Shown here: positions 24,288-41,606 of the stretch, in pieces
Position numbering within the stretch: the stretch's first letter is position 1
How the letters are laid out: the number at the start of each line of letters is the position of its first letter
Origin: Gemmatimonadota bacterium
GTDB lineage: Bacteria > Gemmatimonadota > Gemmatimonadetes > Palauibacterales > KS3-K002
Reading direction: 5' to 3'
NCBI GenBank assembly: GCA_020344375.1
Contig: CP070823.1
Coordinates: forward strand, 2,215,776-2,269,756
DNA: 53,981 bases
Made by a program: the position numbers and the translations under genes
The notes under the pieces: model-generated
The model's database searches: none
Seen by the model: the letters and a program-made list of their open reading frames with translations, nothing else
What the model was told of the DNA's origin: nothing

Positions 24288-25322
24288 CTATTCCCTGGTA
24301 TCGCCGCCGTCAATCATGCCGCCGCCCCCGGGCCCGGAGTCGTCAGCAGCCTCACCAAGCTCCCAGTATTGCGTATCCCGGCTCACCGCTTCCAACGCCG
24401 CCAGCTTTCGACGATATCTCTTCTTCTTCCAATACCCCAAGGCGAGAAAAAGGATCGTCAGAAGGGTCCAGAACACGGCCGCTTGCGTCAGGACGAGGAG
24501 CCAGCCGTACCGATGCCGCACATCTCGTCGCCATAGGCGCTCGAACTGCCCGAGCGTGAGGCCGTAGGTACGTCGCATGGCCGTGTCGAGGTCGCCGGTC
24601 TCCCGCCAGCGCTCGAGCAGCCGGGCAAACCCGTTCGGACCACCCAACCGGGAGAGGAATTCCACAGCCGTGTAGGAAAGCAGGTAAGCGTGATCCGCGC
24701 GCAGACGGCTGCTCGCGAAATCGAGGCTCAGGGACTCGAGGGCTGGGAGCTGACCCAGCAGGACGGCGATGCGCAGAGCCCAAGCATCGTTGGATCGCCA
24801 GTTTCCTGCGGCCAGCTGCGCATATCCTTCGTGGAACCAGCGCGGCACAGCGGAACCCAGATAGCGACTGAGCGCTACATGCGCCAACTCGTGCCTCAGC
24901 ACTGTGATCAGGGGCTCGCGGCCGGCGCGTGCCGTGAACACCGGCAGTACGATTCGGTCCCGCTCCGGGAACGCCAGGCCTGCGCTCCAATCCGGCACCC
25001 CGGGCGCCAGGGAGTCAAAGACTGCCTGATCCGGCGGCAGGTAGACGACGATCTCTCCACGGGCAAGCACGTCCTCCGGCAGCCCGGGCATCCGTGGTGC
25101 AGTCTCTAGCGCTTGGACAAGCGCTCTTGCTGCACTCGCTTGACGGGGCCAGAACCGGAACACCAGCGTGCCGGCCCGAAGTTCCTGCTGTGAGGCTGCA
25201 AGGTTGTAGTTGAGAAAACCGAGACCGGCGAGGAGGATCAGGCCGCCGGTGAAGATAGGTCGAAGTCGGGCGGTTCGCCGGATTCCACTCTGCGCGCTGC
25301 CTCCGCACAACGTCTGGCCCAA
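24288..25322 (-). CDS. Membrane-anchored gluzincin-type (peptidase MA-like) metalloprotease
   Basis: A protein of about 344 residues with an N-terminal signal anchor (FTGGLILLAGLGFLNYNL), a central domain containing LRHELAHVALSRYLG followed by PRWFHEGYAQLAAGNW, and a C-terminal membrane helix (TQAAVFWTLLTILFLAL) with a charged cytosolic tail. HELAH plus the downstream HEG glutamate is the HExxH+E zinc motif of peptidase-MA-like gluzincins. The start is uncertain: TTG at 25322 or 25310 are the only in-frame options that avoid a long overlap with the TPR gene upstream. It seems to close the chemosensory operon, but no direct link to signalling is visible. Confidence 0.75.
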   Translation of the reverse strand: MGQTLCGGSAQSGIRRTARLRPIFTGGLILLAGLGFLNYNLAASQQELRAGTLVFRFWPRQASAARALVQALETAPRMPGLPEDVLARGEIVVYLPPDQAVFDSLAPGVPDWSAGLAFPERDRIVLPVFTARAGREPLITVLRHELAHVALSRYLGSAVPRWFHEGYAQLAAGNWRSNDAWALRIAVLLGQLPALESLSLDFASSRLRADHAYLLSYTAVEFLSRLGGPNGFARLLERWRETGDLDTAMRRTYGLTLGQFERLWRRDVRHRYGWLLVLTQAAVFWTLLTILFLALGYWKKKRYRRKLAALEAVSRDTQYWELGEAADDSGPGGGGMIDGGDTRE

Positions 25323-26113
25323 GGATCGGGCCCCCCGGCGGCAGCTCCATCTTTCCAGGCCGACACCGCGTCTGCCCGTCGGCCCACCTGATAGCGCGCT
25401 CGACCCAGCTGGAAGTACGCTTCGCTCAGCGTGGGGCTCAGGTCCACGGTCTCCAGGAAGAACGATTCGGCATCGCTGTACATCTCCCGCGCCAGGTAGA
25501 CGAGGCCGAGATAGTAGCGACCGTAGAGCATGGCCCGGCGATCCGCTGCGCTGCGGACCGCTTTGGACAGATGCTCGATCGCCTCTCCGTAGATCCCTTT
25601 CTGTAGGCAAATGAATCCAAGGTTCAGGCGCGTCAGAACGTCGTCCGGGCTCACTACCAGGACGTGCTGATAAGTGAGGGCCGCCTCGTCATAGTCCCGC
25701 GACAGCGTCTGCGCCCACCCCAAGCACGATAGAGCCTCCAGGTCGTCCGGCGCCAGTCGCAGAGCTCGCCTCAGGATCTGCCTAGCAGTCTCATAGTCGC
25801 CCGCCGTTATACAGTTCCAACCTTGCTCGAGGAGGCCACCCAGCTCGCCGCCGCGCCGCGCCGGTGCCGCTGGCGCCAGAGCCGGGGCCAGGCCGGCAGG
25901 TTCGTCGGGCCGCACGTCGTATCGCTCTATCAGGCGTGTCAGATCCTCGCGAAGCCCGGCCAGCTGCCGCTCGAGCCATGTGAGGCTGTCGTCGAGCTCC
26001 GCGACCGCCGCGCCGAGCCGGGCACGCTCCTGCTCGCTGCCGGCCCGCTCAAGCGCTGCCTCCAGCTCACGGATTCGCGCGCGCTGCGACACGAGGGGAT
26101 CTTTCCCCTTCAA
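25238..26113 (-). CDS. TPR protein with N-terminal coiled coil
   Basis: A 291-residue soluble protein. Residues about 5-70 form a heptad-rich coiled coil (IRELEAALERAGSEQERARL), then a Pro/Ala linker, then about five TPR units (for example ALRLAPDDLEALSCLGWAQT and VDLSPTLSEAYFQLGRARYQ). No signal peptide. It starts at a TTG whose overlap with the double-CheW stop is 4 nt (TTGA), so it belongs to the chemosensory operon. A protein-interaction adaptor is likely; partners cannot be read from the sequence. Confidence 0.75.
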   Translation of the reverse strand: MKGKDPLVSQRARIRELEAALERAGSEQERARLGAAVAELDDSLTWLERQLAGLREDLTRLIERYDVRPDEPAGLAPALAPAAPARRGGELGGLLEQGWNCITAGDYETARQILRRALRLAPDDLEALSCLGWAQTLSRDYDEAALTYQHVLVVSPDDVLTRLNLGFICLQKGIYGEAIEHLSKAVRSAADRRAMLYGRYYLGLVYLAREMYSDAESFFLETVDLSPTLSEAYFQLGRARYQVGRRADAVSAWKDGAAAGGPDPWARRCAEAARRVESGEPPDFDLSSPAA

Positions 26114-27105
26114 CGCTCTCTCTTCTTCGTACGGCGCCGAGCGCGCTTCTTGCCTCGTGACTCGCCAGCAGCCGCGGCCTTCTCGTCGCTGCGACTAACC
26201 GCCTTCTGCATCCTCTCCAGTGCAATCCGTTCTTTGGAGCTCAGAATCTCGTCCACATCAAGCAGGATGATCAACCGGTCCCCGAGCTGTGCGATCCCCT
26301 GTAGGAAACGGCCGGCCAGCCCTTTGAAGAACTCGGGAGGTGGGCTGAGGGCGTCATCCGGAATCGGCGTCACCCCTGGCACCTCGTCCACCATCAGGCC
26401 TGCCCGGCCGGCGCCCAGCGAGACGACCAGCAGTCGAGCGTCGAACTCCCGTTCACGCTCCGGCAAGCTGAAACGCTTGCGCATCTCGATGACCGGAACG
26501 AGTAATTCTCGCAGCCGCATGACGCCTTCAACGAAGTCGGGCGCTTTGGGCACGCCCCGCAGCTCAGGGACGTGGAGGACCTCGTGAACCTTCATGATAT
26601 CGATTCCGAATTCCTCACCCCCGACGCGGAAAGCCACGACCTGCAGCGGTTCCGAGGTCATTCGCTCTTCCCTCATGATTCTCCCCTTGCCCTCGACTCG
26701 TTCCGCTCGAGGTCCGAGCAGCGGTTCGGGATCGACGTAACGAAACAGTTCACCGTCGAGTTCGACTAGCCCTTCGGCGTGCCGCGGACCTCGCAGTGCG
26801 TGCACATCGGCCTGGACCACGTCGCCGAACGTCTCCACTCTCAGACCCAGAGGCCCGCCGGCAGCGCCAAGCACCAAGAGCACCGAGGTCTTCGCCTCGG
26901 GATCAAGGCGCTGCGCACCTTCGACGGCCCTGGCAAGCTCCAAGACGGGTATCCAGCGGCCTCGCACCAGAGCCAGGCCCAACCGGTCTTCGTCACTTCC
27001 CGGCAGGTCGTGGATGATCGGTCCGATCTCGACGACCTCGTTCACCATCTCCGCCGGCAGGGCATAGCGCGCTTCGCCAACGCGAAACGTGAGGAGGCTC
27101 GTCAC
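26110..27105 (-). CDS. Double CheW-domain coupling protein with basic tail
   Basis: A 331-residue protein with two CheW-like SH3-fold domains: one at about 1-125 (SLLTFRVGEARYALPAEMV) and one at about 150-300 (VVAFRVGGEEFGIDIMKVHE, with LRELLVPVIEMRKRF). The second keeps the features of a CheA/receptor-coupling CheW, though the usual NLRG is RLRE. The last 15 or so residues are highly basic (GKKRARRRTKKRER). The GTG at 27105 overlaps the cheB stop by 4 nt. Two internal ATGs (26676 and 26661) just before the second domain have good SD sequences, so a short single-CheW form may also be made. There is no receiver domain, so this is not CheV. Confidence 0.88.
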   Translation of the reverse strand: MTSLLTFRVGEARYALPAEMVNEVVEIGPIIHDLPGSDEDRLGLALVRGRWIPVLELARAVEGAQRLDPEAKTSVLLVLGAAGGPLGLRVETFGDVVQADVHALRGPRHAEGLVELDGELFRYVDPEPLLGPRAERVEGKGRIMREERMTSEPLQVVAFRVGGEEFGIDIMKVHEVLHVPELRGVPKAPDFVEGVMRLRELLVPVIEMRKRFSLPEREREFDARLLVVSLGAGRAGLMVDEVPGVTPIPDDALSPPPEFFKGLAGRFLQGIAQLGDRLIILLDVDEILSSKERIALERMQKAVSRSDEKAAAAGESRGKKRARRRTKKRER

Positions 27106-28193
27106 GGCCACTGCCTTGAGGCCGACGGTGAGAGCGAGCCGAGACACTCGATGATCACCCTCGGGATCTCCTCCAGCGGAACGACCTTCTCCACCGCACC
27201 TTCCTCCACCGCTCGGCCGGGCATCCCATACACCACGCTGGTGGCGCGATTCTGCGCCAGTGTGCGTCCGTTGACCGCCCGGATCGCCGTAAGCCCGGCG
27301 GCTCCGTCTCGCCCCATACCCGTCAGAACGACACCGACACAGCGCTCGGCGTAGGCGTCCGCGACGCTGGGGAACAACGCATCTGCGGCGGGACGCGTGC
27401 CCCAGATCAAGCCCCGCTGGTCGAGTGCGATCCTGACGTCGCGGTCCACCCTGCGGACACGCATGTGGAAGTCGCCCGGTGCGATCCAAACCTGGTTCCG
27501 TGCCACCGTTTCACCGCCCGAAGCCTCTGCAACAGGGATCGGCGACACCTGGCTGAGCCGCGTGGCCAGCGTGCGGGTGAAACCGGCAGGCATATGTTGC
27601 ACCACCAGCACCACCGCCCCGAGGTCCGCTGGTAGGGCTCCGAGGATGTATGTGAGCGCCCGTGGCCCTCCCGTGGAGGCGGCGATGGCGACAGCAGCGT
27701 CATTCCCGACGCTCGTTGGGCGAACCAGGCGAGGTTCTCGCTGCACCCGTTCACACAGCAGCGCTCCAATGTCGGCGGCGCACGCCGCCTGCAGCGCCTC
27801 GTAGAGACGAGGCTCGACCTTTGCCACATCGAAGGAGATCGGCCCAGACGGCTTGGCCACGAAGTCGACGGCGCCGAGATCAAGGGCACGCAATGCCGCC
27901 TCCGAGCCGGTTTCGGTATAGGCGGAGAGCACGACGATCGGTCGCGGACTCGACGACATCACGCGCTCCAGCACTCCAAAGCCGTCAAGCCTGGGCATCT
28001 CGATGTCCAGAGTCACGACGTCAGGCTCCAGCTCATCGATACGCCGCAGCGCCTCCTGTCCGTCAGCGGCGACCCCGACTACTCGAAATCCGGGAAAACG
28101 CCCGATCATGTCGGAGATCATGCGCCGCATGAAGACGCTGTCATCGACCACTAACACGTCAGCAGTCCCGCCGGCCAGTTTAGATCTCGACAT
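27102..28193 (-). CDS. cheB: Chemoreceptor methylesterase/deamidase CheB
   Basis: CheB removes methyl groups from receptors, adjusting adaptation when phosphorylated by CheA. The N-terminal receiver domain has VVDDS and the phospho-acceptor Asp in VTLDIEMP; the C-terminal esterase has the catalytic serine in AASTGGP, histidine in VQHMP and aspartate in GMGRDGA. At 363 residues it is full length. It overlaps cheD by 14 nt. Its substrate receptor is not encoded in the window. Confidence 0.97.
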   Translation of the reverse strand: MSRSKLAGGTADVLVVDDSVFMRRMISDMIGRFPGFRVVGVAADGQEALRRIDELEPDVVTLDIEMPRLDGFGVLERVMSSSPRPIVVLSAYTETGSEAALRALDLGAVDFVAKPSGPISFDVAKVEPRLYEALQAACAADIGALLCERVQREPRLVRPTSVGNDAAVAIAASTGGPRALTYILGALPADLGAVVLVVQHMPAGFTRTLATRLSQVSPIPVAEASGGETVARNQVWIAPGDFHMRVRRVDRDVRIALDQRGLIWGTRPAADALFPSVADAYAERCVGVVLTGMGRDGAAGLTAIRAVNGRTLAQNRATSVVYGMPGRAVEEGAVEKVVPLEEIPRVIIECLGSLSPSASRQWP

Positions 28194-28659
28194 CGCTGTT
28201 ACCCTGCGATGAGACCACGACTCGCCCGTCGCTCAAATCGAATTCGATCGAGCGACCGCGTCCTCCACCGACCGCCTCGCCGATGATCGGGATATCGTGC
28301 TCAGCAAGTATCGCACGCGCCGCATCCACATTGCGCTCACCAATGTTGCTCTGACTCTCAGAGACCAGTTCCTGAAACATGCAAGCTCCGCCTACGAGGC
28401 GTGCCGTGATTCGCCCACGCTCGGCTCCCGCAGACTCGAGCTCGTCCAGCAAGTCCGGTATTGCGGTCGTCGCACACCTGCCGCGCCGATCCGATTGCGA
28501 TGAGTAGGTCGGGTCTGGCAGCAGTACATGTGCGAGCCCGCCGAGCCGGCTGCCCTCGTCGTAGAGCACGATGACAATGCACGAGCCGACTCCGAGGACG
28601 GACAGGATCCCCTCGGCTTTCCGAATACGCTGCTCACCAGCTGGTACGAACTCCCTCAC
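28180..28659 (-). CDS. cheD: Chemoreceptor glutamine deamidase CheD
   Basis: CheD deamidates glutamines in chemoreceptors and can pair with CheC. The catalytic cysteine lies in LGVGSCIVIVLYD (about residue 27) and the histidine in GLAHVLLPD. The C-terminal half has RLVGGACMF and the region reading SIEFDLSDGRVVV. It is 159 residues, normal for the family. GTG start overlapping the cheR stop by 4 nt. Confidence 0.95.
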   Translation of the reverse strand: MREFVPAGEQRIRKAEGILSVLGVGSCIVIVLYDEGSRLGGLAHVLLPDPTYSSQSDRRGRCATTAIPDLLDELESAGAERGRITARLVGGACMFQELVSESQSNIGERNVDAARAILAEHDIPIIGEAVGGGRGRSIEFDLSDGRVVVSSQGNSDVEI

Positions 28660-29459
28660 CGTTTCCTGTAGATCCTCTCTCGCGCATCGACGACGTCGAA
28701 GAGGGGGCGCATCTCTGCGCCCAGCGTCTCCACACGGCCTAGCACCAGGTAGCCCCCCGACCGCAAGACCTCCGCGAAGGTATCGAAGACTCGGCTCTGC
28801 GCGGGTCGGTCCAGGTAGATCAGCAAGTTGCGGCAGAGGATCAGATCGGCGTCGAAATTCGGGCGCGTCCCGAGGATGTCCAACTGCTGGAATTCCACTC
28901 CCGAGCGTATCGGCTCCTTGAGGCGAAACTCTTCACCGGCCGTGAACCACCGTCGGCGCAGCGCCAGCGGTGTCTCGGAGAGGGCGACCTCTGGGTAGGT
29001 GGCCGCGCGCGCCGCCTCCAGGCTGCGGTTATCGATGTCACTGCCGACGATGCGGACGCCGTCCCAGCTGTCTCTGCCGTGCGCCGCGAGCCATTCCCAC
29101 ACGAGAATGGCCAGGCTGTACGCCTCTTCACCGGCTGCCGAGCCCGCACTCCACATGACGAGTGGTTCTTGCTGCAGCAGCAGTGCGGGCAGCACCTGCT
29201 TCCTTATGACGGCCCAGGTCTCTGGATTGCGGAAGAACTTGCTGACGCTGATGGTCAGCACGCGCAGTAGGCGATCGTACTCGGCGGGGTCCGCGTCAAG
29301 GAGCGCTGCATAGTCTGCGGGCGTCGCGACGCCTCGAGCCCGCATGCGCACCGCGACCCGGCGCCGCAGGCACTTCTGGCGATAGAGGTTCCCGCGGAAC
29401 CCGCGCTCACGCTCGAGCTTGGCGAAGAGTCCCGCGTACGCGGCATCATCGCTGCTCAC
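28656..29459 (-). CDS. cheR: Chemoreceptor methyltransferase CheR
   Basis: CheR methylates receptor glutamates with SAM. The N-terminal helical domain (about 1-75) includes YRQKCLRRRVAVRMRARG; the SAM-binding motif is WSAGSAAGEEAYSLA and the later motif ILCRNLLIYLD matches the family. The protein is 267 residues. Its GTG start overlaps the upstream PATAN-TPR gene by 14 nt. There is no fused TPR tail, unlike some CheR proteins. Confidence 0.96.
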   Translation of the reverse strand: MSSDDAAYAGLFAKLERERGFRGNLYRQKCLRRRVAVRMRARGVATPADYAALLDADPAEYDRLLRVLTISVSKFFRNPETWAVIRKQVLPALLLQQEPLVMWSAGSAAGEEAYSLAILVWEWLAAHGRDSWDGVRIVGSDIDNRSLEAARAATYPEVALSETPLALRRRWFTAGEEFRLKEPIRSGVEFQQLDILGTRPNFDADLILCRNLLIYLDRPAQSRVFDTFAEVLRSGGYLVLGRVETLGAEMRPLFDVVDARERIYRKR

Positions 29460-31080
29460 CGGCAGCGCCCCTCACGAATTCCAGGTTCGTGCGCACTACA
29501 TCGTTGGCGGGATTGAGCTCCAAGGCGCGCGTCCACATCTCGATGGCCCGCTCGCGCGCTCGGCTCTTGTAGTAGACGTTGCCCAGCTTGGCGTAGGCGT
29601 CGTCCCCCAGATCGGGATCCGCTCTCAGCGCCCGCTCGTACGCCTCCGTCGCCTGATCGTAGCGTCCCTCGCGGTACAGCAGGTCGCCCAGGTTCTTGGA
29701 TGCCTGCGCAAGGCTGGGGTCCTGCCCGAACGCCTGCTCGTAGAGCTCACGGGCACGGTCTAGTTTGCCGTTCCTCTCCCGAATGACACCAGCGTTGTTC
29801 GCCAACGCCGCAGAGCTCGCGTGCCTTCCCACGCCCTCCTCTGCCACCTTCACTGCTGACTCAAGATCGGCTGACATGGCCTCGGCCAGAGCCCGGGTCG
29901 AGTAGTAGAGTGGCGGTAACGCATCCTCCACCGCCTCCGCATAGCTGTCGAGCGCCCCGTGCGCCGCCGCCGGATCGCCCAGCTTCAGCAGGAGCAGTGC
30001 CTTACAGAGGTGGAGCTGCGGGTGCGTCTTCACTCGCTGCAGCCCCTCATCCAGCACCGCCACCGCTTCAACCGTCTTGCCCAACGAGCCCAGCACCAGC
30101 GCCAGGTTGTTGTAGGCCGCCGGCTGCCGGCCGCCGCGCTCGATGACCTCCCGCAATTTCGCCTCCGCGGGCTCCAGATGACCTTGGCGCAGCGCCACTA
30201 GCCCCAAGTAGAACTCCGCATCCAGAGCCTGAGGGTCCAGCTCCAGCACTCGTTTGAGCTCTCTCACGGCCTCGTCGAACATCGCGGTCTTGTAGAACGC
30301 CACGCCCAGGTTCCGGTGCTCGTCCACTCGTGCGCCTGTGTCCGCGCGTGCTGTCTCGCGCTCGCGTCGTCCCGCCCTGCGCACCAGTCCCACCGTGATC
30401 AGAGCGTAGAGCGCCTTCCCAACCTCGAACTCAGGCAGCGCGGTCTCCTCCACGATGTCCCAGCCGCTGTGCTTTCCATCCAGTAGGGGAAGGATCTTCT
30501 CCTGCTCTTCGGTGAGATTGAGTGTGGAGATGGATGCCGACCGATCGGAATCCAGTGTGAAGGTGAGCTCGAGCGACGGTACCTTCTTCTCGATCTGACC
30601 CCACTCGTCCACGCGGCGTGCGCCCTCAAGCAGCAGGCTCTCAGGATCAATGGACACCAAGATCGATTCCCGCTCCGGTCGCTGCCCAGGCTCGAAGTAG
30701 AACGTGCCCTGGCTCCAGGTGAACAGGTGGTAGACGGCTTCTTCGATCTGGTGGCGCACCCACTTGTGGAGCGTGGTCTGATCGATGAAACCTTTGTCCT
30801 TGAGGATCTCGCCGAGTCGCCGGCCGTCACGTGCCTTGCTCTGCTCCTCGATCGCGTCATCCAGATGCTCACGCGTTATTACCTTCTCGCGGACCAGGAT
30901 GTCACCGAGCCGGTCACGCCGGTTAAGCAGGGAGGCGTAGATGATGCGGCCCTCTTCGAAGTAGATGTAGCCAAAGCTCTGGCGGTCCGTTACCGATAGG
31001 CAGCCCGTCTTGCCCCCCATGGTCAAGAGCTGAAGGACGTCGGGCAGGCTGGCTTCCTTGAGGCTACCCTTGATGGCCAT
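29446..31080 (-). CDS. PATAN/DUF4388 domain protein with C-terminal TPRs
   Basis: A 544-residue soluble protein. The N-terminal DUF4388/PATAN domain starts IKGSLKEASLPDVLQLLTM and includes GKTGCLSV and YIYFEEGRIIYA; it continues with an annex (GEILKDKGFIDQTTLHKWVR, GTFYFEP) to about residue 165. The rest is about eight TPR units. PATAN domains occur with response regulators in cyanobacteria, where some act on the type IV pilus motor; that is family knowledge, not shown here. I place the start at the ATG at 31080, which overlaps the end of the DnaA-like gene. Similar in design to the PATAN-TPR protein at 34515-35648. Confidence 0.82.
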   Translation of the reverse strand: MAIKGSLKEASLPDVLQLLTMGGKTGCLSVTDRQSFGYIYFEEGRIIYASLLNRRDRLGDILVREKVITREHLDDAIEEQSKARDGRRLGEILKDKGFIDQTTLHKWVRHQIEEAVYHLFTWSQGTFYFEPGQRPERESILVSIDPESLLLEGARRVDEWGQIEKKVPSLELTFTLDSDRSASISTLNLTEEQEKILPLLDGKHSGWDIVEETALPEFEVGKALYALITVGLVRRAGRRERETARADTGARVDEHRNLGVAFYKTAMFDEAVRELKRVLELDPQALDAEFYLGLVALRQGHLEPAEAKLREVIERGGRQPAAYNNLALVLGSLGKTVEAVAVLDEGLQRVKTHPQLHLCKALLLLKLGDPAAAHGALDSYAEAVEDALPPLYYSTRALAEAMSADLESAVKVAEEGVGRHASSAALANNAGVIRERNGKLDRARELYEQAFGQDPSLAQASKNLGDLLYREGRYDQATEAYERALRADPDLGDDAYAKLGNVYYKSRARERAIEMWTRALELNPANDVVRTNLEFVRGAAGEQR

Positions 31081-32242
31081 CGTCCCAGTTCTCCACAAGA
31101 AGCTCTTCGATCACGGGCCAATCCCACACGACCTTCTCGGAATCGAAGAAGAAATCATCGACGGCGAGATTGGCCCGACGCGCCTCTGCGAGCAGTCCTC
31201 GGAGTTCCTCGATGCGATCCGGGTCCCTGAACGACATTTCCGACGGCAGCTCGGCTTCCAGGCGTGAGAACTCCTCCTCGATCGCCTTCAGGGTGGCGAC
31301 ATCGCGTTCGTACGCAGCTATCACCTGTTGGGCGTCCACGATTTCATCCCCATCGAGGTAGGTCTCCAGCCGCTTGGTCAGATAGCTCTCGCCTCCCCAC
31401 TTCAGAATCGCGCGCGCCAGATCCTCTCGCCATTGCGGTGCCCCGAGGGCTTCCTCTACTGCAGACGACACATCGCTGAGGAAATCATCGAACTCGCTCG
31501 TCTCCCGTTCCTGAGCCTCCGCCAACCAGGGCAGTTCCGGGTCGCTGATCACGTCCGCGAGCAGCCGGTCCACCTCGTCCGCTTGGATCTCCCGCTTGGC
31601 CGCCTTCTGGGCCGCCAGCACACGGTTGAGTGCCCCCTTCAGCTGACGCACGTTCTCGATCGCGGAGCGGGCGATCGTCTCGATAACCTCCGGGCGCAGA
31701 GTCGCCCCGAGCGCACCGAGGCGGAGTTCCAGTATCGCCCGGCGTGTCTCAAGCACCGGGCGACCGATGTCAACCACGAGGCCGCCGCTGAACCTGGAGA
31801 GCAAACGATCGTCCAGTTCGCCCAGCTCCAGGGGTGGCCGGTCGCAGGCCAGGGCAACCTGCTTGCCGGCCATCAGCAGGTGATCCAACAGATGGAAGAG
31901 GGAGTGGTGGCTCTCGGTGTGGTGCCCGAGGAATTGCAGATCGTCGATGAGCAGGATCTCCGCATCGTGATAGGACGTTGCAGCTTCGGCTTCCGCCGCC
32001 AGATGCCGCAGCAACTGTTCGACGGCGGTGTAAACCACGCGCATGCCCGGCTGGAGATCCTGGGCGCGATTGGCAATCGCCACCAGCAGGTGCGTCTTGC
32101 CGAGGCCGGTGTCGCTGTAGATGAACAGGGGGTTGTACGACGAGCCCGGTGACTCCGCCGCGGTGCGTGCCGCCTCCCAGGCCAACCGGTTCTCCGGCCC
32201 GACCACGAAGGAGGCGAAGGTCATGCTGGTGTCAACGGCCAC
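31064..32242 (-). CDS. DnaA-like AAA+ ATPase lacking the DnaA DNA-binding domain
   Basis: Residues about 5-230 match DnaA domain III: FASFVVGPENRL entry, Walker A SDTGLGKT (43-50), Walker B ILLIDD (96-101), sensor 1 CDRPP (133-137), box VII DRLLSRF with an arginine-finger candidate, and sensor 2 NVRQLKGALNRV (197-208). The N-terminal DnaA domain I is absent. In place of domain IV there is an unrelated acidic, helical region of about 160 residues with a coiled-coil-like stretch; no DHTTV-type helix-turn-helix is seen. The gene lies between mglA (11-nt overlap) and a PATAN-TPR gene inside the chemosensory operon, so a role in replication initiation is unlikely. Function unknown; an ATP-driven assembly or switching factor for the GTPase module is a reasonable guess. 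GTG start; ATG at 32224 is an alternative. Confidence 0.85.
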   Translation of the reverse strand: MAVDTSMTFASFVVGPENRLAWEAARTAAESPGSSYNPLFIYSDTGLGKTHLLVAIANRAQDLQPGMRVVYTAVEQLLRHLAAEAEAATSYHDAEILLIDDLQFLGHHTESHHSLFHLLDHLLMAGKQVALACDRPPLELGELDDRLLSRFSGGLVVDIGRPVLETRRAILELRLGALGATLRPEVIETIARSAIENVRQLKGALNRVLAAQKAAKREIQADEVDRLLADVISDPELPWLAEAQERETSEFDDFLSDVSSAVEEALGAPQWREDLARAILKWGGESYLTKRLETYLDGDEIVDAQQVIAAYERDVATLKAIEEEFSRLEAELPSEMSFRDPDRIEELRGLLAEARRANLAVDDFFFDSEKVVWDWPVIEELLVENWDDGHQG

Positions 32243-33725: not shown

Positions 33726-34534
33726 TTGCCCAGGCTGTCCAGGTGTTCTCGTGCCAACTCGCGTGCACGTTCCAGCACGCGCGCCGCCTGGCCCGCTGGA
33801 AGGTCGCAGGCCGTCGCTACGATGAGCGTATTACGACCGACTTCAGAGATCGTCAGCCGAACCACTGCACTCTCGATCAACAGACTCTGGAGCCCACCGA
33901 GCTGGAGATAAGAGGCGACCCGCTCGGCCTCGGCCCTCGCGCCGCTGAGGGTCACGCCCAACATCCTGTCCGATTCCACACCGCGTGGTGTCATCCGGCC
34001 CTCGACCAGCTGGCCGGTCGCGTCTACCAGCAGCGCGCCGAGCGTCCCCGGGGCCTCACGCTCCAGTGTGGTGAAGAGGCCACTCACAGCGGTCGTAGTG
34101 GTCTCGGCTTCGTCTCCGTCCCTGCGCGTGGCCTGGAGCCTGCTCGAGAGCTCTGCCACGGTGGCGTCACCGGGGGCGATCTTGCGGGCCACAAGCAACT
34201 CCTGCTCCGCATCCGCCCGCCGCCCCTCGTCCAGATAGAGTCGAATCACGGACAGGCGAGACGGCAGATGATCCGGCGCCAGCTGAAGGACGATCCCCCA
34301 CTCATCCAGGGCAAGCTCCCGCTCGCCACGCTGCTCGTAGATGCGCCCGAGCTCGCAGTGGGCCTCCACGTGCGTCGGGTGACGCTGAAGGCCGCGCAGG
34401 CAGAGCCGAAGCGCGCGATCGAGATCGCCTCGCTCGCGGTACGCAGCAGCCAGCTCCACGAACGCCGTCGAATTCGGGTTCGCAGCGACTTCAGCGCTCA
34501 GCTCCTGCAGCGATCTACGAGTGCTCTCGGCCAT
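33722..34534 (-). CDS. TPR protein with C-terminal Roadblock/LC7 domain
   Basis: A 270-residue protein: about three TPR units at residues 20-130 (for example ALRLCLRGLQRHPTHVEAHC), a short Thr-rich linker, then a Roadblock-like domain at about 150-265 (LGALLVDATGQLVEGRM, then ERVASYLQLGGLQSLLIESA). This fusion could link the GTPase module to the TPR scaffolds made by neighbouring genes. It overlaps the upstream PATAN-TPR gene by 20 nt. Confidence 0.78.
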   Translation of the reverse strand: MAESTRRSLQELSAEVAANPNSTAFVELAAAYRERGDLDRALRLCLRGLQRHPTHVEAHCELGRIYEQRGERELALDEWGIVLQLAPDHLPSRLSVIRLYLDEGRRADAEQELLVARKIAPGDATVAELSSRLQATRRDGDEAETTTTAVSGLFTTLEREAPGTLGALLVDATGQLVEGRMTPRGVESDRMLGVTLSGARAEAERVASYLQLGGLQSLLIESAVVRLTISEVGRNTLIVATACDLPAGQAARVLERARELAREHLDSLGK

Positions 34535-35648
34535 TGAATTCGCCCAATATCGTCTGCAGCTCGCGCACCACGGTCATCGCACGCTCGACCCGTCGCCGGT
34601 CCGTGCCGTCTGCTGCCATGCGTAGGTACGCCGCCCACTCGCGTGCGGCGCCCTCGACATCGCCAAGCCTCAAGCGCACGAGGCCCAATCGCTGTCGCGC
34701 ATCCTGAGCCAAGGGATCGAGGTTCAACGCTATCTCATAGCCTTCTGCCGCGCCCACCAGATCGCCGCGTCCTTCTCGGACGCGCGCATCCAGATAGTGG
34801 GCTCTCGGCTCGTCGGGATGACTGCTCAGCAGCGGCTCAAGCTGCTCACGTGCAGCATCCAGCTCGCCCAGCTTGAGCAAATCCTCCACCTTATCGAGTG
34901 CGATTTCGTACGACGGCTTAGCTGGGGCCACGACCTCGGAGCCGATCTCAAGCAGCCCCTGCTCTGCCAGTCCGGAGATCACCTTGCTGATTTCAAACTC
35001 GCTACGCCCTAACGTGTGGGCGATCGATCTGACGTCACTCACACCGTCAACGCGCCCCACCACTTCCCATTCATCCGGTGACAGGTCGAGTATGCCACCT
35101 TCATCTGCCGCTTGCCCGGACAGCCGTGGCACTGCGCTCGGGTCCTCGATGGTCGTTGAGAGCGCTGAGAGCTCGTCGGCGCGCCGCGCTCGTTCCATCA
35201 AGACCGACTCGACCGGTATCCAGGTGGCGCACTCCGATTCACGTATCAACCGCTCGACGAACAGGAAGCGCCCATCACGCCATGCCAGGATCTCGTAGAC
35301 GAACTCTTCGACCTCAATCTTCACGTACCTCTCAAGGTCCTGCCGCGCGACAACATCCAGCGACTCGAAGATATCACGCCAGGCAAGCGCAGGATTCTCG
35401 GCACGCAGCTGACTCGCACGCTGAAGATCCGCCTCCCTGATCTTGCCGGCGTTGAGAAGCATATAGCCCAGACGCGGTGACACTTCGTCCAAGTCCGCAC
35501 CGACCACAGCACCGGCCTTGAAGACCACCACACCCCGTGTGCCCGCCGGCTGCTGCACGATCTTCAGCTCGCCTGTCTTCCGTGAGAGGTGAAGGAGCTG
35601 GAAGATGTCGTGCAACGCGAACTCACGCAGCGAGCCCTCTATTGGCAT
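34515..35648 (-). CDS. Second PATAN/DUF4388-TPR protein
   Basis: A 377-residue soluble protein with an N-terminal PATAN/DUF4388 domain (EGSLREFALHDIFQLLHLSR, GELKIVQ, GVVVFKAGAVVGADLDE), the same annex region as its paralogue at 29446-31080 (a helical hairpin, then the RFLFVERLI strand), a winged-helix-like LSPDEWEVVGRVDGVSDVRS segment, and three or four TPR units at the C-terminus. The ATG overlaps the stop of the 907-residue TPR gene by one base. The same gene design appearing twice in one operon suggests an old duplication. Confidence 0.82.
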   Translation of the reverse strand: MPIEGSLREFALHDIFQLLHLSRKTGELKIVQQPAGTRGVVVFKAGAVVGADLDEVSPRLGYMLLNAGKIREADLQRASQLRAENPALAWRDIFESLDVVARQDLERYVKIEVEEFVYEILAWRDGRFLFVERLIRESECATWIPVESVLMERARRADELSALSTTIEDPSAVPRLSGQAADEGGILDLSPDEWEVVGRVDGVSDVRSIAHTLGRSEFEISKVISGLAEQGLLEIGSEVVAPAKPSYEIALDKVEDLLKLGELDAAREQLEPLLSSHPDEPRAHYLDARVREGRGDLVGAAEGYEIALNLDPLAQDARQRLGLVRLRLGDVEGAAREWAAYLRMAADGTDRRRVERAMTVVRELQTILGEFNGREHS

Positions 35649-38371
35649 CAGTCGCCACTCCTCGCTGCAGCGCCTTCAACGGCGTGCTCCGTGCCCAGTA
35701 CCAACCGCGCCTGGACGCGGGCCCTCGCGGCGTATTCGCTCTCGGGCACCACCTCGATGAGCCGGCGCCAGTAGCTCAGCGCTTCTCGGTAACGACCGGA
35801 TTCCGCAGTCAGCTCGCCGAGACGAAACAGCACCGACGGCTTCTCCGGCTCGAATCGCAGTACCCGGCCAAACGCCTGCTCCGCATCTCTTCGTCTTCCT
35901 TCCTTTGCCAGCGCCTCACCCAACATCACCAGCGCCTCGAGGTTGTACGGCTCAGCCTCAAGAAAGTCGGCCAGCAGGTTGACGATCTCACGGGATCGAC
36001 CCTGTCGGCTCAACAGCTCGGCGAGCAGCAGGGTGCCTTCCGCATAGGTGGGCATGAGTTCGAGCGCCTGCCGGACCTCGCCCTCCGCCTCACTATACGC
36101 GCCCTCGTCGATGAGGATCCGCCCCAACTCCACTCGGGCCGCCGCGAAATCTGGATCTTCCGCGATCGCCAGCCGGTAGGATTCCTTGGCGTGCCGGCGG
36201 TTCCCTACCGCCAGCGCTGCCCGTGCGACTTCCCGGTGCACCACCGGATCGCGTGGTGAGGTTCGCGCAGCTCGCTCAAGTACCTCCAGCGCCCGTTTGG
36301 CCTCACCCGAGCGGGTCAACGCTTCCGCCACGGTCAAGAGCTGAGCGACATCTGAGGCCGCCTTCGGCTGGAGCTCCTCCGCTACGGCACGCGCCTCTTC
36401 CGTCCGGTCCAGCCGCAGCAGACAGCGGGCGAGCCCGGCCAGCACGTTGGGGTCCGCAGGCCGGAGCGTGCGGGCCTCCCGGAAGCGCTCCAGCGCCTCG
36501 CCGTAGAATCCGCGCTGGAGGTAGACGTTCCCGATGACGAGCGCTCCCTCAGCCGTATGACCGCTCTCGCGCATCGCACGCACAGCCTCGCTCAAAGCCC
36601 GTTCGTAGAGCCCGCTCGACAGGTAGTCGCGCGCCAGCGCGAAGGCGTCGCCCTGGATCTCTAGGCCCTCCGCCGCCTCCGGCGCTGGCTCCGAGGCCTT
36701 CGCCGGAGCGTCGAGCTCTTGGAAGACCGTGTCGAGCTCCGCCGGGTCAAACTTGAAATCACGGATGCCGGGGCCTTTCGCCTCGATCCGCTCCGGCGCC
36801 GCCAGCTCCGGCGCCCAGACTTCTCCACCTTCGTACTGCAGGTCGATCGCGAGCTTGAATCGCGGCGCAGTATAGTACGGGTCGAGCTCCAGTGCGCTCT
36901 TTGTCTCGCGCAGCGCGCCCTCATGATCGCCAAGCCGGGCCAGGGCAAAGCTGAGGTTGTAGCGCGCCGGCGGGAATCTCGGATCCGATTCGACCGCACG
37001 GGCGAAAGCGTTACGGGCCTCAGCCATCTTGTCCATGGCCATGAGAGCCAAACCCAGACCGTTCCACGCGTCCGCCCGGCCCGGTTCCGCATTCAACATC
37101 TGGCGGTAGAGGCGGAGGCTATTCTCCGGCCGGTCGGTCTTGATCCAGAGCAACCCGAGGTTCCAACGTGTCTCGTCCAGCTCAGGCTTTACTTCCAGGG
37201 CTTGCTGGAATGCTGTCTCCGCGGCTGCCATGTCTCCGCGGTGCGCACTCAGCACGCCCACGTTGTTCCACGCCAACGCGTACTTCCCGTCCCACCTCAG
37301 GGCACGCCGGTAGCTCTCCTCCGCCTCGTCAAAGCGGCCAATCTGGTGGAGCGTCACACCGCGCTCATTCCACAGCTTCGGGCTGTCTTCCTGTGTGGCG
37401 AGCAGCGTATCGTATCGTGCCAGCGCACCATCAGCGTCGCCCTCAAGGAGCGCCAGTTCTGCTTCTGCCTGCTCGATGAGCGTCGCATCCTCACCCGCCT
37501 CGCGTCCGCGAGCCAACTCTCGACGTGCCTCTTCGTAAAGGCCGCGCGCCCGGAACGCGATGCCGAGGCTGTAGTGTGCGAACGCCTGCTGGCCGTCAGT
37601 CGTCAGTGTCGGCGCGTTGCCGGTGAGCTCGAAGTAGCGGGCCGGGCTGTAGCGGTCGAGTGACAGGTTAGCCTGCGCCTTCGCTGACGCAGGATTGAGC
37701 TCAGTTGCACGCTTGGCGTGCTGTGCGGCTTTCTCTGCCTCACCTGTGTCGCCGTAGACGAAACTCAGGAGGTGATGCGCCTCCGACATCGACGGGCTCG
37801 CCTTCAGCGCCTTCTTGAGATGGACGATCGCCTCCTCGTCCATACCCTGATTATAAAGGATCTCGCCGAGCGAATAGTGGATCAACGGGCGATCGGGGTC
37901 CAGCTCGCTGGCCCGTTCGAACCACTCGATCGCTCGCTTCAGCTCACCCCGACTCTTCTCGGCGCTGCCGAGTTTCATTAGCACGCGTATGTCCTTGCGT
38001 CTTCTCTTGATCAGCAGTTCGTACTGGCCGATTGCCTCATCTACTCGCCCGGTTTGCAGATAGGCGTCCGCAAGCTTAAAGCGAGCCTCGTCGTCCGACT
38101 CGTCGACCTCGAGACGACGGACAAACTCAGCAATCCGCCGATCGTAGTAGCCGGTTTGGTGGTAGGCGATCTCGAGATTCCGGCGTGCTACCTCCATCTT
38201 CTCGTCGATGGCCAAGGCACGGCGAAACTGCTCGATCGCCTCCTCATACAGACCCTTCTGGTAGTAAACCACCCCCAGGTTGTTGTACGCACCAGCGTCG
38301 CCCGGATCGATCCTACGGGCCAGTGCCCGGAGCACGCGCAGATCGCCCTCGGAGTGAACCGTGCTCTTCAT
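35648..38371 (-). CDS. Very long TPR-repeat protein (907 residues)
   Basis: Almost the whole length is TPR-like 34-residue units, well over a dozen, beginning at about residue 20 (AYNNLGVVYYQKGLYEEAIE). A short acidic, Ala/Pro-rich break (about 535-575) splits the array into two superhelices. No signal peptide or membrane helix, so it is cytosolic. It sits between cheC and the PATAN-TPR gene. The likely role is a scaffold that gathers several partners of this operon; that is inference. ATG start, 3 nt after the cheC stop. Confidence 0.8.
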   Translation of the reverse strand: MKSTVHSEGDLRVLRALARRIDPGDAGAYNNLGVVYYQKGLYEEAIEQFRRALAIDEKMEVARRNLEIAYHQTGYYDRRIAEFVRRLEVDESDDEARFKLADAYLQTGRVDEAIGQYELLIKRRRKDIRVLMKLGSAEKSRGELKRAIEWFERASELDPDRPLIHYSLGEILYNQGMDEEAIVHLKKALKASPSMSEAHHLLSFVYGDTGEAEKAAQHAKRATELNPASAKAQANLSLDRYSPARYFELTGNAPTLTTDGQQAFAHYSLGIAFRARGLYEEARRELARGREAGEDATLIEQAEAELALLEGDADGALARYDTLLATQEDSPKLWNERGVTLHQIGRFDEAEESYRRALRWDGKYALAWNNVGVLSAHRGDMAAAETAFQQALEVKPELDETRWNLGLLWIKTDRPENSLRLYRQMLNAEPGRADAWNGLGLALMAMDKMAEARNAFARAVESDPRFPPARYNLSFALARLGDHEGALRETKSALELDPYYTAPRFKLAIDLQYEGGEVWAPELAAPERIEAKGPGIRDFKFDPAELDTVFQELDAPAKASEPAPEAAEGLEIQGDAFALARDYLSSGLYERALSEAVRAMRESGHTAEGALVIGNVYLQRGFYGEALERFREARTLRPADPNVLAGLARCLLRLDRTEEARAVAEELQPKAASDVAQLLTVAEALTRSGEAKRALEVLERAARTSPRDPVVHREVARAALAVGNRRHAKESYRLAIAEDPDFAAARVELGRILIDEGAYSEAEGEVRQALELMPTYAEGTLLLAELLSRQGRSREIVNLLADFLEAEPYNLEALVMLGEALAKEGRRRDAEQAFGRVLRFEPEKPSVLFRLGELTAESGRYREALSYWRRLIEVVPESEYAARARVQARLVLGTEHAVEGAAARSGD

Positions 38372-38374: not shown

Positions 38375-38995
38375 CTATCCCAGCCGGACGGTCTTCAGTA
38401 TGACGTTCAAACTGGAAGGATCCGGCAGCAGAACGAAGTGCCCGGACATCCCCGGATCGCCGGGTTCAAAGCGGAAGCGGGTGTCCAAGATAATCACATA
38501 GCTACGGTCATGGCCGAAGTTGAGATAGGTCGCTGAGAGAATCGCCGCACAGAGATCTATCGCCAGGCTGGGCACCGACGGGATCAGCATCAAGCCGAGC
38601 ATGTCTGACAGCCCGCTGAGATAGGCGCCCGTCAGGATATTGGCAGTCTCCTTGAGGGAGGACTGTTCCAGCTCGGCAAACACCTTGGTGGTGCCGGGCT
38701 CCCGGTTGAGGAGCATGTCGCTCAGCTGCAATGCGCAGTCTTTTTGGAAGATCAGTAGGCTGCGCCCCGTGAGGTCGCCCAGCACGTGCATGAGAACCGC
38801 GGCGACCACGCCACTTCCGCTCCCCACTGCCGAGGAAGCTTCCTCGATTGGGCAGATCTGCACCTGCGGCACGTCAATCATGATGCGGCGATTCGTCAGC
38901 TGACTGAGTGCCGTGGCTGCGTGACCCGCGCCGATGTTCGCGACTTCCTTCAGCGCGTCAAGCTGCCGTTCCTCGAGCCCTCGCGTGTCCTTCAT
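38375..38995 (-). CDS. cheC: CheY-P phosphatase CheC
   Basis: CheC dephosphorylates CheY-P and is stimulated by CheD. Both half-site motifs are present: LKEVANIGAGHAATALSQL followed by DVP, and LKETANILTGAYLSGLSDML followed by a proline, each with the catalytic E and N. At 206 residues it is a standard two-site CheC. It follows cheA by 36 nt. CheC together with CheD implies the Bacillus/Thermotoga style of adaptation. Confidence 0.94.
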   Translation of the reverse strand: MKDTRGLEERQLDALKEVANIGAGHAATALSQLTNRRIMIDVPQVQICPIEEASSAVGSGSGVVAAVLMHVLGDLTGRSLLIFQKDCALQLSDMLLNREPGTTKVFAELEQSSLKETANILTGAYLSGLSDMLGLMLIPSVPSLAIDLCAAILSATYLNFGHDRSYVIILDTRFRFEPGDPGMSGHFVLLPDPSSLNVILKTVRLG

Positions 38996-39031: not shown

Positions 39032-40654
39032 CTAGCACAGACTGCCAACGTCGAGCACCAGAGCTGGCCGACCATCCGGCCGCACTGTGGCGCCCGAGAA
39101 CACGGGTACGGCCCCGACCGGTAGGTCGAACGGTTTGATCACGATTTCCTCCTCACCTACGAAGTCGTCAACCGACACAGCTAGCCGCGTGCCTCCGAAT
39201 TCAAGTGCTACGAGATTGAGCGGCCAGCCCTCGGGCCCGCCGGCTCCCTTGCCATTCCCCCCAGCGCCACCCAACAACACCTGCAGGCGGGTGAGCGCCA
39301 CCCGCTCGCCGCGCCAGCTGATCCACTCTTGGCCGTGAGTCTGCTCGACGGCGCTCTCCAGGAGCTCGAAGCTTTCGCGGATGAATGTGGCAGGCAGAGC
39401 GTAGATCTGCCCCGCTACCTTCACGATGAGGGCGCGGATGATGGCGAGAGTGAGTGGTAGCTCGAGGCGAACGGTGCAGCCGACGCCCTTCTCGCTCTGA
39501 AGCTCTACCGAGCCGCCCAACCCTCTGACCGTGTCTTCCACCACGTTCAGCCCGACCCCACGGCCGGAGAGTGTTGTAATCCGAGGCGACGTGGAGAATC
39601 CAGGTCGCGCCATGATCCGGAAGAGTTCCTGGCTGGTCGGCTCCGCATCCTCGTCGAGCAGACCCTCGCGACGTGCCCTCGCCGTCACCTCCTCGCGATC
39701 GACGCCGCGTCCGTCGTCGCTGACCACGATCACCACACGCGACCGCTCGCGCCGTGCCGACACCTCGATCCGCCCTGCCCGCGGCTTGCCGGCCTTCTTG
39801 CGCTCGGCGGGCGTCTCAATACCGTGGTCAACCGCGTTGCGAAGCAAGTGAACAAGCGGATCGGAGATCGCGTCGAGCATGGAACGGTCCAGCTCGAGAT
39901 CCCTCCCTGAGATCTCGAGCTCCACTTCCTTGTCGAGCGTGCGCGCAGTCTCACGCACCAGGCGCGGGAAGCGATCGAAGATCTGCCAGACCGGCGCCAT
40001 CCGGCTTTCAACGACGTTGACCTGCATCTCAGCGATCAACCGACTCGCTTGCTCGACGCTGTCGTGCAGCGGCTCTGATCCCAGTTCGTCAGCCAGCGCG
40101 TGAAGCCGACTGCGCACGATGGTCAGCTCGCCGATCAAGTTCATCAGCGTGTCGAGCCGCCGAATGTCGACGCGCACACGGTTGGCGTCGGCCCTTCTCA
40201 CAAACGTCTCGGCCCGGTGCGCCCGCACGCGGGCCGCTTCCTCTGCCACCGCTGGAGCGGCGGGTGCCATCTCCCCTAGCAGCTGCCATTGCACCAGACC
40301 CTCAACCATCACAGCGGCATCCGGCGGCTCACTTCCCTTGACCGTCGCCTCCACCGACTGCTCCAGCAGGTCGAGCGCCTGCAGCAAGAGGTCTATGACG
40401 CTACGGTCGACCTGCCGGTGCCCCGCCCTCAGCTCATCCAGCACGGACTCGATGCTATGGGAGAGACGCGTTACCGCCTCGTAGCCCATCGCCGCGGCCA
40501 TCCCCTTGATCGTATGGACCGAGCGAAAGACGGCATCCAGAGCGCCTCGCTCAGCAGGCTGCTCCTCGAGGGCGACCAGCGCCCGACCGATCTCGGCGAG
40601 GTGCTCGCGCGCCTCGGCCGCGAAGAGCTCAGCGTACTTCTCTTGTGGCTTCAT
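39032..40654 (-). CDS. cheA: Chemotaxis histidine kinase CheA
   Basis: A 540-residue CheA: Hpt domain with phospho-acceptor His47 in RSVHTIKGMAAAMG, dimerisation domain containing LDTLMNLIGELTIVRSRL, ATPase domain with LLRNAVDHGIETP (N box), DDGRGVDREEV (G1) and GRGVGLNVVEDTV (G2), and a C-terminal CheW-like domain. There is no obvious P2 CheY-binding domain between about residues 110 and 150, so the kinase is compact. It overlaps cheY by 4 nt (ATGA). Confidence 0.96.
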   Translation of the reverse strand: MKPQEKYAELFAAEAREHLAEIGRALVALEEQPAERGALDAVFRSVHTIKGMAAAMGYEAVTRLSHSIESVLDELRAGHRQVDRSVIDLLLQALDLLEQSVEATVKGSEPPDAAVMVEGLVQWQLLGEMAPAAPAVAEEAARVRAHRAETFVRRADANRVRVDIRRLDTLMNLIGELTIVRSRLHALADELGSEPLHDSVEQASRLIAEMQVNVVESRMAPVWQIFDRFPRLVRETARTLDKEVELEISGRDLELDRSMLDAISDPLVHLLRNAVDHGIETPAERKKAGKPRAGRIEVSARRERSRVVIVVSDDGRGVDREEVTARARREGLLDEDAEPTSQELFRIMARPGFSTSPRITTLSGRGVGLNVVEDTVRGLGGSVELQSEKGVGCTVRLELPLTLAIIRALIVKVAGQIYALPATFIRESFELLESAVEQTHGQEWISWRGERVALTRLQVLLGGAGGNGKGAGGPEGWPLNLVALEFGGTRLAVSVDDFVGEEEIVIKPFDLPVGAVPVFSGATVRPDGRPALVLDVGSLC

Positions 40655-41013
40655 CCCAGTACGCGCTGCACCGCTTCGACCACGCGCGACGGTTGGAATG
40701 GCTTGACCACGAAATCGCGGGCTCCAGCCTGGATGGCCTCAACCACGAGAGCCTGCTGCCCCATGGCGCTGACCATCAGGATGCGGGCGTTGGGATCGAC
40801 CTTCATGATCTCGCGAACCGCATCGATCCCGCCCATGTCGGGCATCACGATATCCATGGTGACCAGATCGGGCTTGAACTGCTTGTACTTCTCCACCGCT
40901 TCAACACCGGAGGAGGCCTCGCCCGCGATCTCGAAGCCTGCATGCTCCAGAATGTCAGCGATCATCGTACGCATGAAGATCGCGTCATCTACAATCAGCA
41001 CCGTGCGGCTCAT
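40651..41013 (-). CDS. cheY: Response regulator CheY
   Basis: A single-domain receiver of 120 residues: acidic pair in LIVDDA, phospho-acceptor Asp in VTMDIVMP, the switch serine in MVSAMGQ and the conserved lysine in VVKPFQP. No output domain. It lies between cheW and cheA and is translated from an ATG with AGGAG five bases upstream. Its target is not shown; flagellar fliM is absent here, so MglA or a PATAN protein is possible. Confidence 0.95.
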   Translation of the reverse strand: MSRTVLIVDDAIFMRTMIADILEHAGFEIAGEASSGVEAVEKYKQFKPDLVTMDIVMPDMGGIDAVREIMKVDPNARILMVSAMGQQALVVEAIQAGARDFVVKPFQPSRVVEAVQRVLG

Positions 41014-41021: not shown

Positions 41022-41507
41022 CTATCCTCCTACCGATACGAGTCGAATCGATTGATCTTGGTCACCAGGCTGGCCGAGCACACGCGCAAAGACCGAATCC
41101 AGGTTTAGCTGCAAGAACGGCCTCGGGCCAGACTGCCCGACACCATTCACCAAGTCTCGCGCGCCCAACCCTTCGAGGAGATCGCCATCCACATCGAGTT
41201 CCGCCCCCGTGTAGGGGACGACGCCTACGACACGATCGACACCTAGCGCCAACTGCCGGGTCCCGTTCTCGAAGAGAACCAGTACCGACCCTTGGCCCCC
41301 AGTCGAAGCCAGACCCAGAAGCGTGGCGAGTTCCCCCGCCACCACCAGCCTCCCCCGCAGGTTGATGAGGCCCAGCACGCCGGGCACCGCGCCGGGAACA
41401 GGGGTCGCCTCATCCAAGACCATCACCCCACGCACCTCCCGCGCGTCCACTGCGAAGAGATAGTCGCCGACCTCAAACAGGAGCTGGCGCCAATGGGGTT
41501 CGGCCAC
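41022..41507 (-). CDS. cheW: CheW coupling protein
   Basis: A 161-residue single CheW domain: QLLFEVGDYLFAVDAREVRG, then GVLGLINLRGRLVVAGELAT with the canonical NLRG. CheW bridges CheA and receptors. I place the start at the GTG at 41507, about nine bases after AGAGGG; the frame is open further upstream, but that part reads as shadow of rluD. First gene of the chemosensory operon. Confidence 0.9.
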   Translation of the reverse strand: MAEPHWRQLLFEVGDYLFAVDAREVRGVMVLDEATPVPGAVPGVLGLINLRGRLVVAGELATLLGLASTGGQGSVLVLFENGTRQLALGVDRVVGVVPYTGAELDVDGDLLEGLGARDLVNGVGQSGPRPFLQLNLDSVFARVLGQPGDQDQSIRLVSVGG

Positions 41508-41577
41508 CGAATGCAACCCTCTGATCAGGTAGTGGGAAATGGGGGAGGGATCGCAGTGCGTCGCGCGCGGAAGTATA

Positions 41578-41606
41578 ACTATAGTAAGGACTAACGCCGC
41601 GGTCAA
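41578..41606 (-). promoter_or_regulatory. Predicted sigma-70-type promoter of the chemosensory operon
   Basis: Minus-strand TTGACC (41606-41601) and TATAGT (41583-41578) are exactly 17 bp apart, a near-consensus housekeeping promoter. The TGA of the rluD stop lies inside the -35 hexamer. The predicted start near 41571 leaves a leader of about 64 nt before cheW. The AT-rich stretch 41571-41590 stands out from its surroundings. Confidence 0.75.

Follow-up and report, generated by a model that had tools for sequence, protein, structure and literature searches.

A stretch of 53,981 nucleotides from a Gemmatimonadota genome (assembly GCA_020344375.1, contig CP070823.1, positions 2,215,776 to 2,269,756, hereafter the window, whose numbering is used unless a contig or locus is named) raises the question of why chemosensory (che) genes should share one operon with the Ras-like GTPase gene mglA, with genes for roadblock, PATAN and tetratricopeptide repeat (TPR) proteins, and with a gene for a DnaA-like ATPase. 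The answer favoured here, with a probability of about 0.58, is that this is a signal-integration and polarity operon, in which a receptor-CheA-CheY pathway and cyclic di-GMP (c-di-GMP) would both feed an MglA/PATAN/TPR core, and this core would license type IV pili. The operon occupies the minus strand from 41516 to 24288, and all 18 of the genes named in a first-pass annotation, which had claimed one operon, are present in the order and at the coordinates that it gave. The 17 junctions between them span a 20-nt overlap to a 36-nt gap, and a single transcript is therefore likely. Gene families were assigned with Pfam, and MglA and MglB were identified by comparison with solved structures. In gene order, the features are:

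41578..41606, minus strand: candidate sigma-70-like promoter TTGACC-N17-TATAGT (motif match)
41022..41516, minus strand: cheW1, CheW adaptor, TTG start assumed (PF01584, E 3.2e-17)
40651..41013, minus strand: cheY, single-domain response regulator (PF00072)
39032..40654, minus strand: cheA (P1-P3-P4-P5), the genome's sole CheA (PF01627, PF02895, PF02518, PF01584)
38375..38995, minus strand: cheC, phosphatase of phosphorylated CheY (PF04509)
35648..38371, minus strand: TPRbig, large TPR protein of 907 residues (TPR families; conserved in the gene order)
34515..35648, minus strand: PATAN1, DUF4388/PATAN and TPR (PF14332), MshEN motif decayed in this genome's family
33722..34534, minus strand: TPR and roadblock protein (PF03259, E 6e-7)
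33366..33725, minus strand: roadblock protein (PF03259, E 8e-7)
32873..33361, minus strand: MglB, predicted roadblock homologue of the GTPase-activating protein (GAP) (solved MglB, E 6e-10; NCBIfam MglB, E 4e-14)
32232..32870, minus strand: mglA, Ras-like GTPase (M. xanthus MglA, E 2e-78)
31064..32242, minus strand: DnaA-like AAA+ ATPase, with DnaA domain III, a helical domain (residues 270-365) and a C-terminal tail (PF00308, E 6e-46)
29446..31083, minus strand: PATAN2, DUF4388/PATAN with an embedded MshEN-type c-di-GMP motif (residues 58-112), then TPRs (PF14332)
28656..29459, minus strand: cheR, methyltransferase (PF01739, E 1.7e-44)
28180..28659, minus strand: cheD, deamidase (PF03975; GSC and HxxLP kept)
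27102..28193, minus strand: cheB, methylesterase with receiver domain (PF01339, PF00072; ASTGG, QHMP and GMGRDG kept)
26110..27105, minus strand: cheW2, double CheW protein (PF01584, two stretches)
25238..26113, minus strand: short TPR protein (family search)
24288..25244, minus strand: putative membrane HELAH metallopeptidase, hereafter the protease (Peptidase_MA_2; PF13485, E 4.8e-15)

When stretches of up to 20 kb were compared, a check that the first-pass annotation had proposed, most families of the class showed the same gene order, which is thus not unique to this genome. Most proteins are about 30-50% identical across the class, MglA is about 65-76% identical, and CheY is 72-83% identical across families in which CheA segments show about 40-50%. 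Recurrence of the order at such mostly low identity rejects a chance arrangement, and the che, MglA, roadblock, PATAN, TPR and DnaA-like genes are supported as one long-lived evolutionary unit. The operon is also present in genome G317 (L107/L181), with 77% identity for CheY and 29% for TPRbig, and the DnaA of G317 groups with Geobacter, not with Gemmatimonadota. Between its TPRbig and PATAN1 homologues (L181:3670-6575) the G317 operon is interrupted by a NotI-type restriction-modification cassette with Mrr-like, TIR-like, NotI and D12 methylase genes.

The 298 genomes sampled from the phylum, mostly metagenome assemblies, include 125 that carry the module-type MglA, and these reveal how the operon comes apart. 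CheA and methyl-accepting chemotaxis proteins (MCPs) are both present in 111 of the 125 and both absent from nine (Fisher p 4.5e-10, with descent ignored), where weak MCP matches (E 1e-4 to 1e-6, in G072, G165, G203 and G294) were scored as absent. The nine genomes lacking both represent nine genera of four families and have kept the MglA core. Five exceptions to the pairing are accounted for by a truncated CheA, a weak match or a contig end. The MCP-less genomes G121, G163 and G207 have lost cheW1, cheR, cheD, cheB and cheW2, and their CheA lacks exactly P5, the CheW-like coupling domain, with P1, P3, P4, CheY and CheC remaining; this form of the operon CheA is found in two more members of the genus, G094 and G247. 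In G262 the operon has no cheA and the genome yields just a weak CheA match, and the operon of G210 is truncated at the edge of its contig. Further forms retain cheY and cheC without cheA (G294 and G144; L162 and L163), where CheC may persist as a binding partner of CheY or CheY may receive its phosphate from a different donor, or cheY as the only che gene (G005, G063 and G262), or an intact core with no che gene (L164, L166 and L102). G072 (L061) carries just short remnants of cheR, cheB and cheW2, as if loss were under way.

Genus g24 shows a different pattern. Its members G054 and G175, and L104, arranged in the same way, have kept cheR, cheB, TPRbig, PATAN1, roadblock, mglB, mglA and PATAN2, as well as cheW, cheY, cheA and cheC wherever the stretch extends to them, and are without the TPR-roadblock gene, the DnaA-like gene and the protease; two further members, G066 and G298, have also lost the operon mglA and have kept mglB and the che genes. 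A rule by which the che genes are always lost before the MglA/DnaA-like core is disproved by g24. PATAN2 is retained in almost every form, and the idea that it persists in every one is disproved by its loss in G087 (L165). The loss patterns, those of g24 included, therefore divide the operon into three separable parts, namely the che input, the MglA-roadblock-TPR-PATAN group, and the DnaA-like protein with the protease, and PATAN2 bridges them.

The che part constitutes a chemosensory system, comprising a CheA with P1, P3, P4 and P5 and an intact HTIKG motif at H47, together with CheW, CheY and a methylation system, and CheC retains both ExxN-x22-P sites, at 17 and 116. The start of cheW1 is probably near 41516 (TTG) rather than at the first codon of the 292-codon open reading frame. 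MglA belongs to Group 1, given its E-value of 2e-78 to the solved MglA and the invariance of R53, T78 and Q82 in 12 of 12 aligned members. The MglB-like identity proposed for its neighbour is upheld, the protein being a significant homologue of solved MglB (E 6e-10) that falls below the Thermus-type NCBI model (53 bits against a cut-off of 200). TPRbig is a candidate effector of GTP-bound MglA in a role analogous to that of SgmX, to which its likeness is confined to TPR repeats. Some operons depart from this core. The operon MglA of G092 (genus g26; L051:10685-11242) is 41% identical and carries GAPQSGKT and AVPDQRH in place of the usual switch motifs, which suggests that it no longer switches normally. 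The operons of G070, G090, G192 and G130 (L048, L049, L176 and L177) keep mglA and the DnaA-like gene with no recognisable TPR-roadblock, roadblock or mglB gene.

PATAN1 and PATAN2 score 84.4 and 143.4 bits against DUF4388 (curated cut-off 25), and PATAN2 in addition carries a c-di-GMP motif that the first-pass annotation had overlooked. PATAN2 scores 52.4 bits against the MshE-related c-di-GMP motif NF053729 (cut-off 38), the motif is matched in 16 of 16 members, and R58, G60, Q81, G91 and Q112 are invariant among them. The spacing from the first R to the Q is 23 in both motifs, the same as in MshE (PMC5013675). Foldseek placed the PATAN2 model closest in the PDB to MshE with c-di-GMP (5htl; root-mean-square deviation, rmsd, 1.1 Å over 57 columns, E 0.018) and to the c-di-GMP-bound GSPII-B domain of PilF (9gl5; 1.0 Å over 55 columns, E 0.11), both with probability 1.00, the modest E-values being due to the shortness of the match. 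As in the MshEN/GSPII-B domains of MshE and PilF/PilB, there are two 24-residue RLG...Q motifs with the R, G and Q positions kept (PMC5013675), but here they lie inside a PATAN domain rather than at the N-terminus of an ATPase. PATAN2 is accordingly a likely c-di-GMP sensor, judged from motif and predicted fold. GGDEF proteins were found in 20 of 20 genomes tested, with five matches in this genome, and PATAN1 exceeds the motif cut-off in four other Gemmatimonadota tested. The motif is also present in PATAN2 of family f6, alongside the DnaA-like protein and the protease, and in g24 and g56 (L104, L198, L202 and L174) all three are missing; the PATAN2 TPRs of these four loci begin about 50 residues earlier, as if a 53-residue insert had gone. 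This joint loss and joint retention, seen in few lineages, suggests that the DnaA-like ATPase and the protease may serve the c-di-GMP-responsive form of PATAN2.

The AAA+ part of the DnaA-like model superposes on domain III of Bacillus subtilis DnaA with an rmsd of 1.4 Å, the model is confident at residues 1-235 and in the helical domain at 270-365, and the Walker and box VII motifs are intact. No DNA-binding domain IV was found by profile or model, the match stopping at the AAA+ lid, and the helical domain predicted in its place is new. The protein is not a true DnaA, since it has no domain IV and scores 241.6 bits against TIGR00362 (cut-off 343.9), nor is it Hda (Hda E 6e-6 against DnaA E 1.8e-46; TIGR03420 83.5 bits, cut-off 194.8). 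The AAA+ core is common to DnaA domain III and Hda, whereas here a helical domain and tail replace domain IV and the AAA+ domain is in tandem in most families, being single in f1, to which this genome belongs, and in f8. On a phylogenetic tree, all first AAA+ domains, that of G317 included, form a supported clade separate from DnaA (98/92), and all second AAA+ domains group in another clade, so f1 and f8 most likely lost the second domain. By its sequence, the protein is an old DnaA paralogue that lacks the DNA-binding domain. Its C-terminal tail, built around EKxxWxWP...RxxE, is found in nearly all members, including f6, is shorter in G317, and may resemble a docking peptide. The genome of Geobacter sp. 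AOG1 (L197) encodes a second, very divergent DnaA-type AAA+ protein. We know of no DnaA-like protein in the Frz-MglA/MglB-SgmX system of Myxococcus.

The rest of the genome, a single contig of 3.04 Mb scored 87.6% complete whose closest named relatives are Gemmatimonadota, was annotated by family searches. No receptor, flagellar or pilus gene lies within the operon itself, as had been reported, and elsewhere there are two MCPs, one dCache-HAMP-MCP and one HAMP-MCP adjoining a periplasmic binding protein gene. The genes pilC, pilT and pilB are contiguous at C1:1038897-1043186, and PilB carries an MshEN domain. A 1976-residue SprA_N protein (SprA_N match, L080:13001-18931 = C1:1045000-1050930), resembling the translocon of the type IX secretion system (T9SS) and gliding, is encoded close to them, and an M28 peptidase gene adjoins. 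A second MglA/MglB pair is located at C1:1121505 in the order dnaX-recR-mglB-mglA. FliG gave no match in this genome, at its 87.6% completeness.

Under the favoured reading, the two MCPs would couple through CheW to the sole CheA, with adaptation by CheR, CheB and CheD and termination by CheC. Phosphorylated CheY would target the neighbouring MglA/PATAN/TPR core rather than a flagellar switch, in keeping with the retention patterns. MglA, by homology, would cycle between GTP and GDP under the control of MglB and the other roadblock proteins and, in its GTP form, would recruit the TPR and PATAN-TPR proteins as it does SgmX in Myxococcus. PATAN2, when bound to c-di-GMP, may gate the same core, and the TPR and PATAN proteins would act on PilB and PilT at a pole, setting where and when pili extend. 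More speculatively, the DnaA-like AAA+ protein could serve as an accessory that does not bind DNA and, in concert with the membrane protease, remodels or assembles PATAN2 in its c-di-GMP-responsive form. A bolder form of this proposal is tentative and rather doubtful: after duplication, a DnaA AAA+ domain would have shed the DNA-binding domain and been drawn into a polarity switch that integrates c-di-GMP, a Ras-like GTPase and a chemosensory phosphorelay, where with the protease it would remodel c-di-GMP-bound PATAN by ATP-dependent, DnaA-type assembly.

Several observations weigh against the signal-integration reading. No sequence evidence ties CheY to the core proteins, and pili could be regulated by the second MglA/MglB pair instead. 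The presence of pilB, pilT and pilC does not by itself make pili the output, and the co-occurrence with pil genes that the first-pass annotation had proposed to check, although complete (a PilT-family match in 125 of 125 module genomes), says little and is not discriminating, since 284 of the 298 genomes have such a match; sister family f2 has pili and no module. In f6 only the DnaA-like gene, PATAN2 and the protease are left, without the operon mglA and che genes. The che genes of g24 have outlasted the DnaA-like gene (G054 and G175) and, in G066 and G298, the operon mglA too, and the che part can thus do without either. Together with the location of receptors and pili elsewhere and the che-less MglA cores of L164, L166 and L102, this contradicts the description of the module as self-contained. 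Of the proposed chemosensory-to-polarity module there remains a lasting unit, new in its combination and non-flagellar in this genome, which lacks FliG, and the link to polarity and pili is drawn from homology.

The same losses bear on what else the operon could do. If the DnaA-like part steered the timing of replication or division, as an Hda-like or decoy DnaA, the operon would couple signals to the cell cycle; the f6 remnant fits this, and a core that models as DnaA domain III with Walker and box VII motifs kept could mix with DnaA. We consider it unlikely, given a protein without a DNA-binding domain that is nearer to DnaA than to Hda and belongs to an old separate clade, and given that its conserved partners (MglA, roadblock and PATAN proteins) have characterised relatives that function in motility. 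That the genes are mere neighbours in an old, slowly rearranged segment, with no crosstalk between the che and MglA parts, would agree with the ileS-lspA-rluD synteny, likewise conserved, upstream of the operon among relatives and with the separate loss of the che, MglA and DnaA-like parts; it sits badly with the coherence of those losses, in which P5, CheW, CheR, CheB, CheD and the MCPs go together, CheA(P1-P4), CheY and CheC stay, and then CheY alone, and with the same operon in G317, and is judged quite unlikely.

An output through a T9SS/SprA-type gliding or secretion machine instead of type IV pili is suggested by the SprA_N gene close to pilC-pilT-pilB and by Myxococcus MglA, which drives gliding as well as pili (PMC9481161). 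The precedent for PATAN is binding to PilB (cited in PMC9090330), and the PilB of this genome resembles PATAN2 in having an MshEN domain. With SprA_N the one gliding or T9SS gene covered, this output is judged very unlikely. Least probable is a role of the operon che genes in flagellar chemotaxis, to which the MglA core would be unrelated: CheC and CheD are typical of flagellar systems and FliG is found in 31 of the 125 module genomes, but it is absent from the other 94, 71 of which have exactly one CheA, and 18 of the 31 have two or three CheA matches, leaving a separate flagellar CheA. For this genome a flagellar output is rejected, unless the assembly lacks flagellar genes that the organism has.

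Other features of the locus and related arrangements may be added. The promoter predicted by the first-pass annotation at 41606-41578 matches the site exactly and is the region's top sigma-70-like match, yet three such sites are seen against 2.3 expected by chance, and it is therefore only plausible. A gene for a 581-residue TPR protein (21988-23733), also found downstream in same-family relatives, and a tRNA-Val gene (23845-23920) come after the operon. In Zixibacteria, an Ignavibacterium and some Planctomycetes, homologues of PATAN, TPR-roadblock, roadblock, mglA and mglB are grouped in various combinations, and no che or DnaA-like genes lie near these groups. Among those of Zixibacteria and the Ignavibacterium, L106, L112, L119, L122, L129, L138 and L145 hold PATAN, TPR-roadblock, usually roadblock, and mglA together, most adding an mglB homologue, and the PATAN of L106 is also above the c-di-GMP motif cut-off. 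A Nitrospirota metagenome-assembled genome (L150:9424-19951) has mglB-mglA in the vicinity of a receiver-GGDEF-PilZ-CheW-CheA-CheB-CheW cluster; here MglA, chemosensory and c-di-GMP genes seem to have become linked independently.

Known systems share parts of this design. In Myxococcus the TPR protein SgmX binds GTP-bound MglA and promotes polar PilB (PMC7519303), and the Frz-MglA/MglB-SgmX system of M. xanthus has in common with the operon a chemosensory kinase, MglA with its GAP MglB, a TPR effector and an output that includes type IV pili (PMC7519303, PMC4316618). Unlike that system, whose mglA lies away from the genes encoding its response-regulator partners (PMC4316618), the present one is a single operon, with a single-domain CheY accompanied by CheC and CheD and with extra roadblock and PATAN-TPR proteins. 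PATAN regulators of Synechocystis bind PilB1, and cyanobacterial PATAN response regulators (PixE and relatives) share with the operon the PATAN (DUF4388) domain and a type IV pilus output (cited in PMC9090330), which here is conjectural; in contrast to them, the PATAN proteins here are TPR-fused, carry an MshEN-type motif and no receiver domain, and are encoded beside MglA. The vicinity of mglA to PATAN genes is occasional in Groups 1 and 5, and Group 1 neighbourhoods vary widely, in the survey of Wuichet and Sogaard-Andersen (2014, PMC4316618), which makes no mention of DnaA; unlike those neighbourhoods, the order here is fixed class-wide over up to 18 genes. No description of the operon was found in the literature, in a search confined to open papers.

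Among Ras-like polarity switches under chemosensory control, the best studied is that of Myxococcus, where the parts are scattered over the genome. In this class the candidates are kept in one operon, and they can be ranked by natural deletions: the receptors disappear along with CheW and the P5 domain of CheA, the loss of CheY comes late, and the MglA core can be lost separately, as can the DnaA-like part. New are the c-di-GMP motif in PATAN2 and the presence, in a polarity operon, of a DnaA-derived AAA+ protein. The result is a short list of proteins for interaction tests, and a likely c-di-GMP sensor is placed beside MglA.

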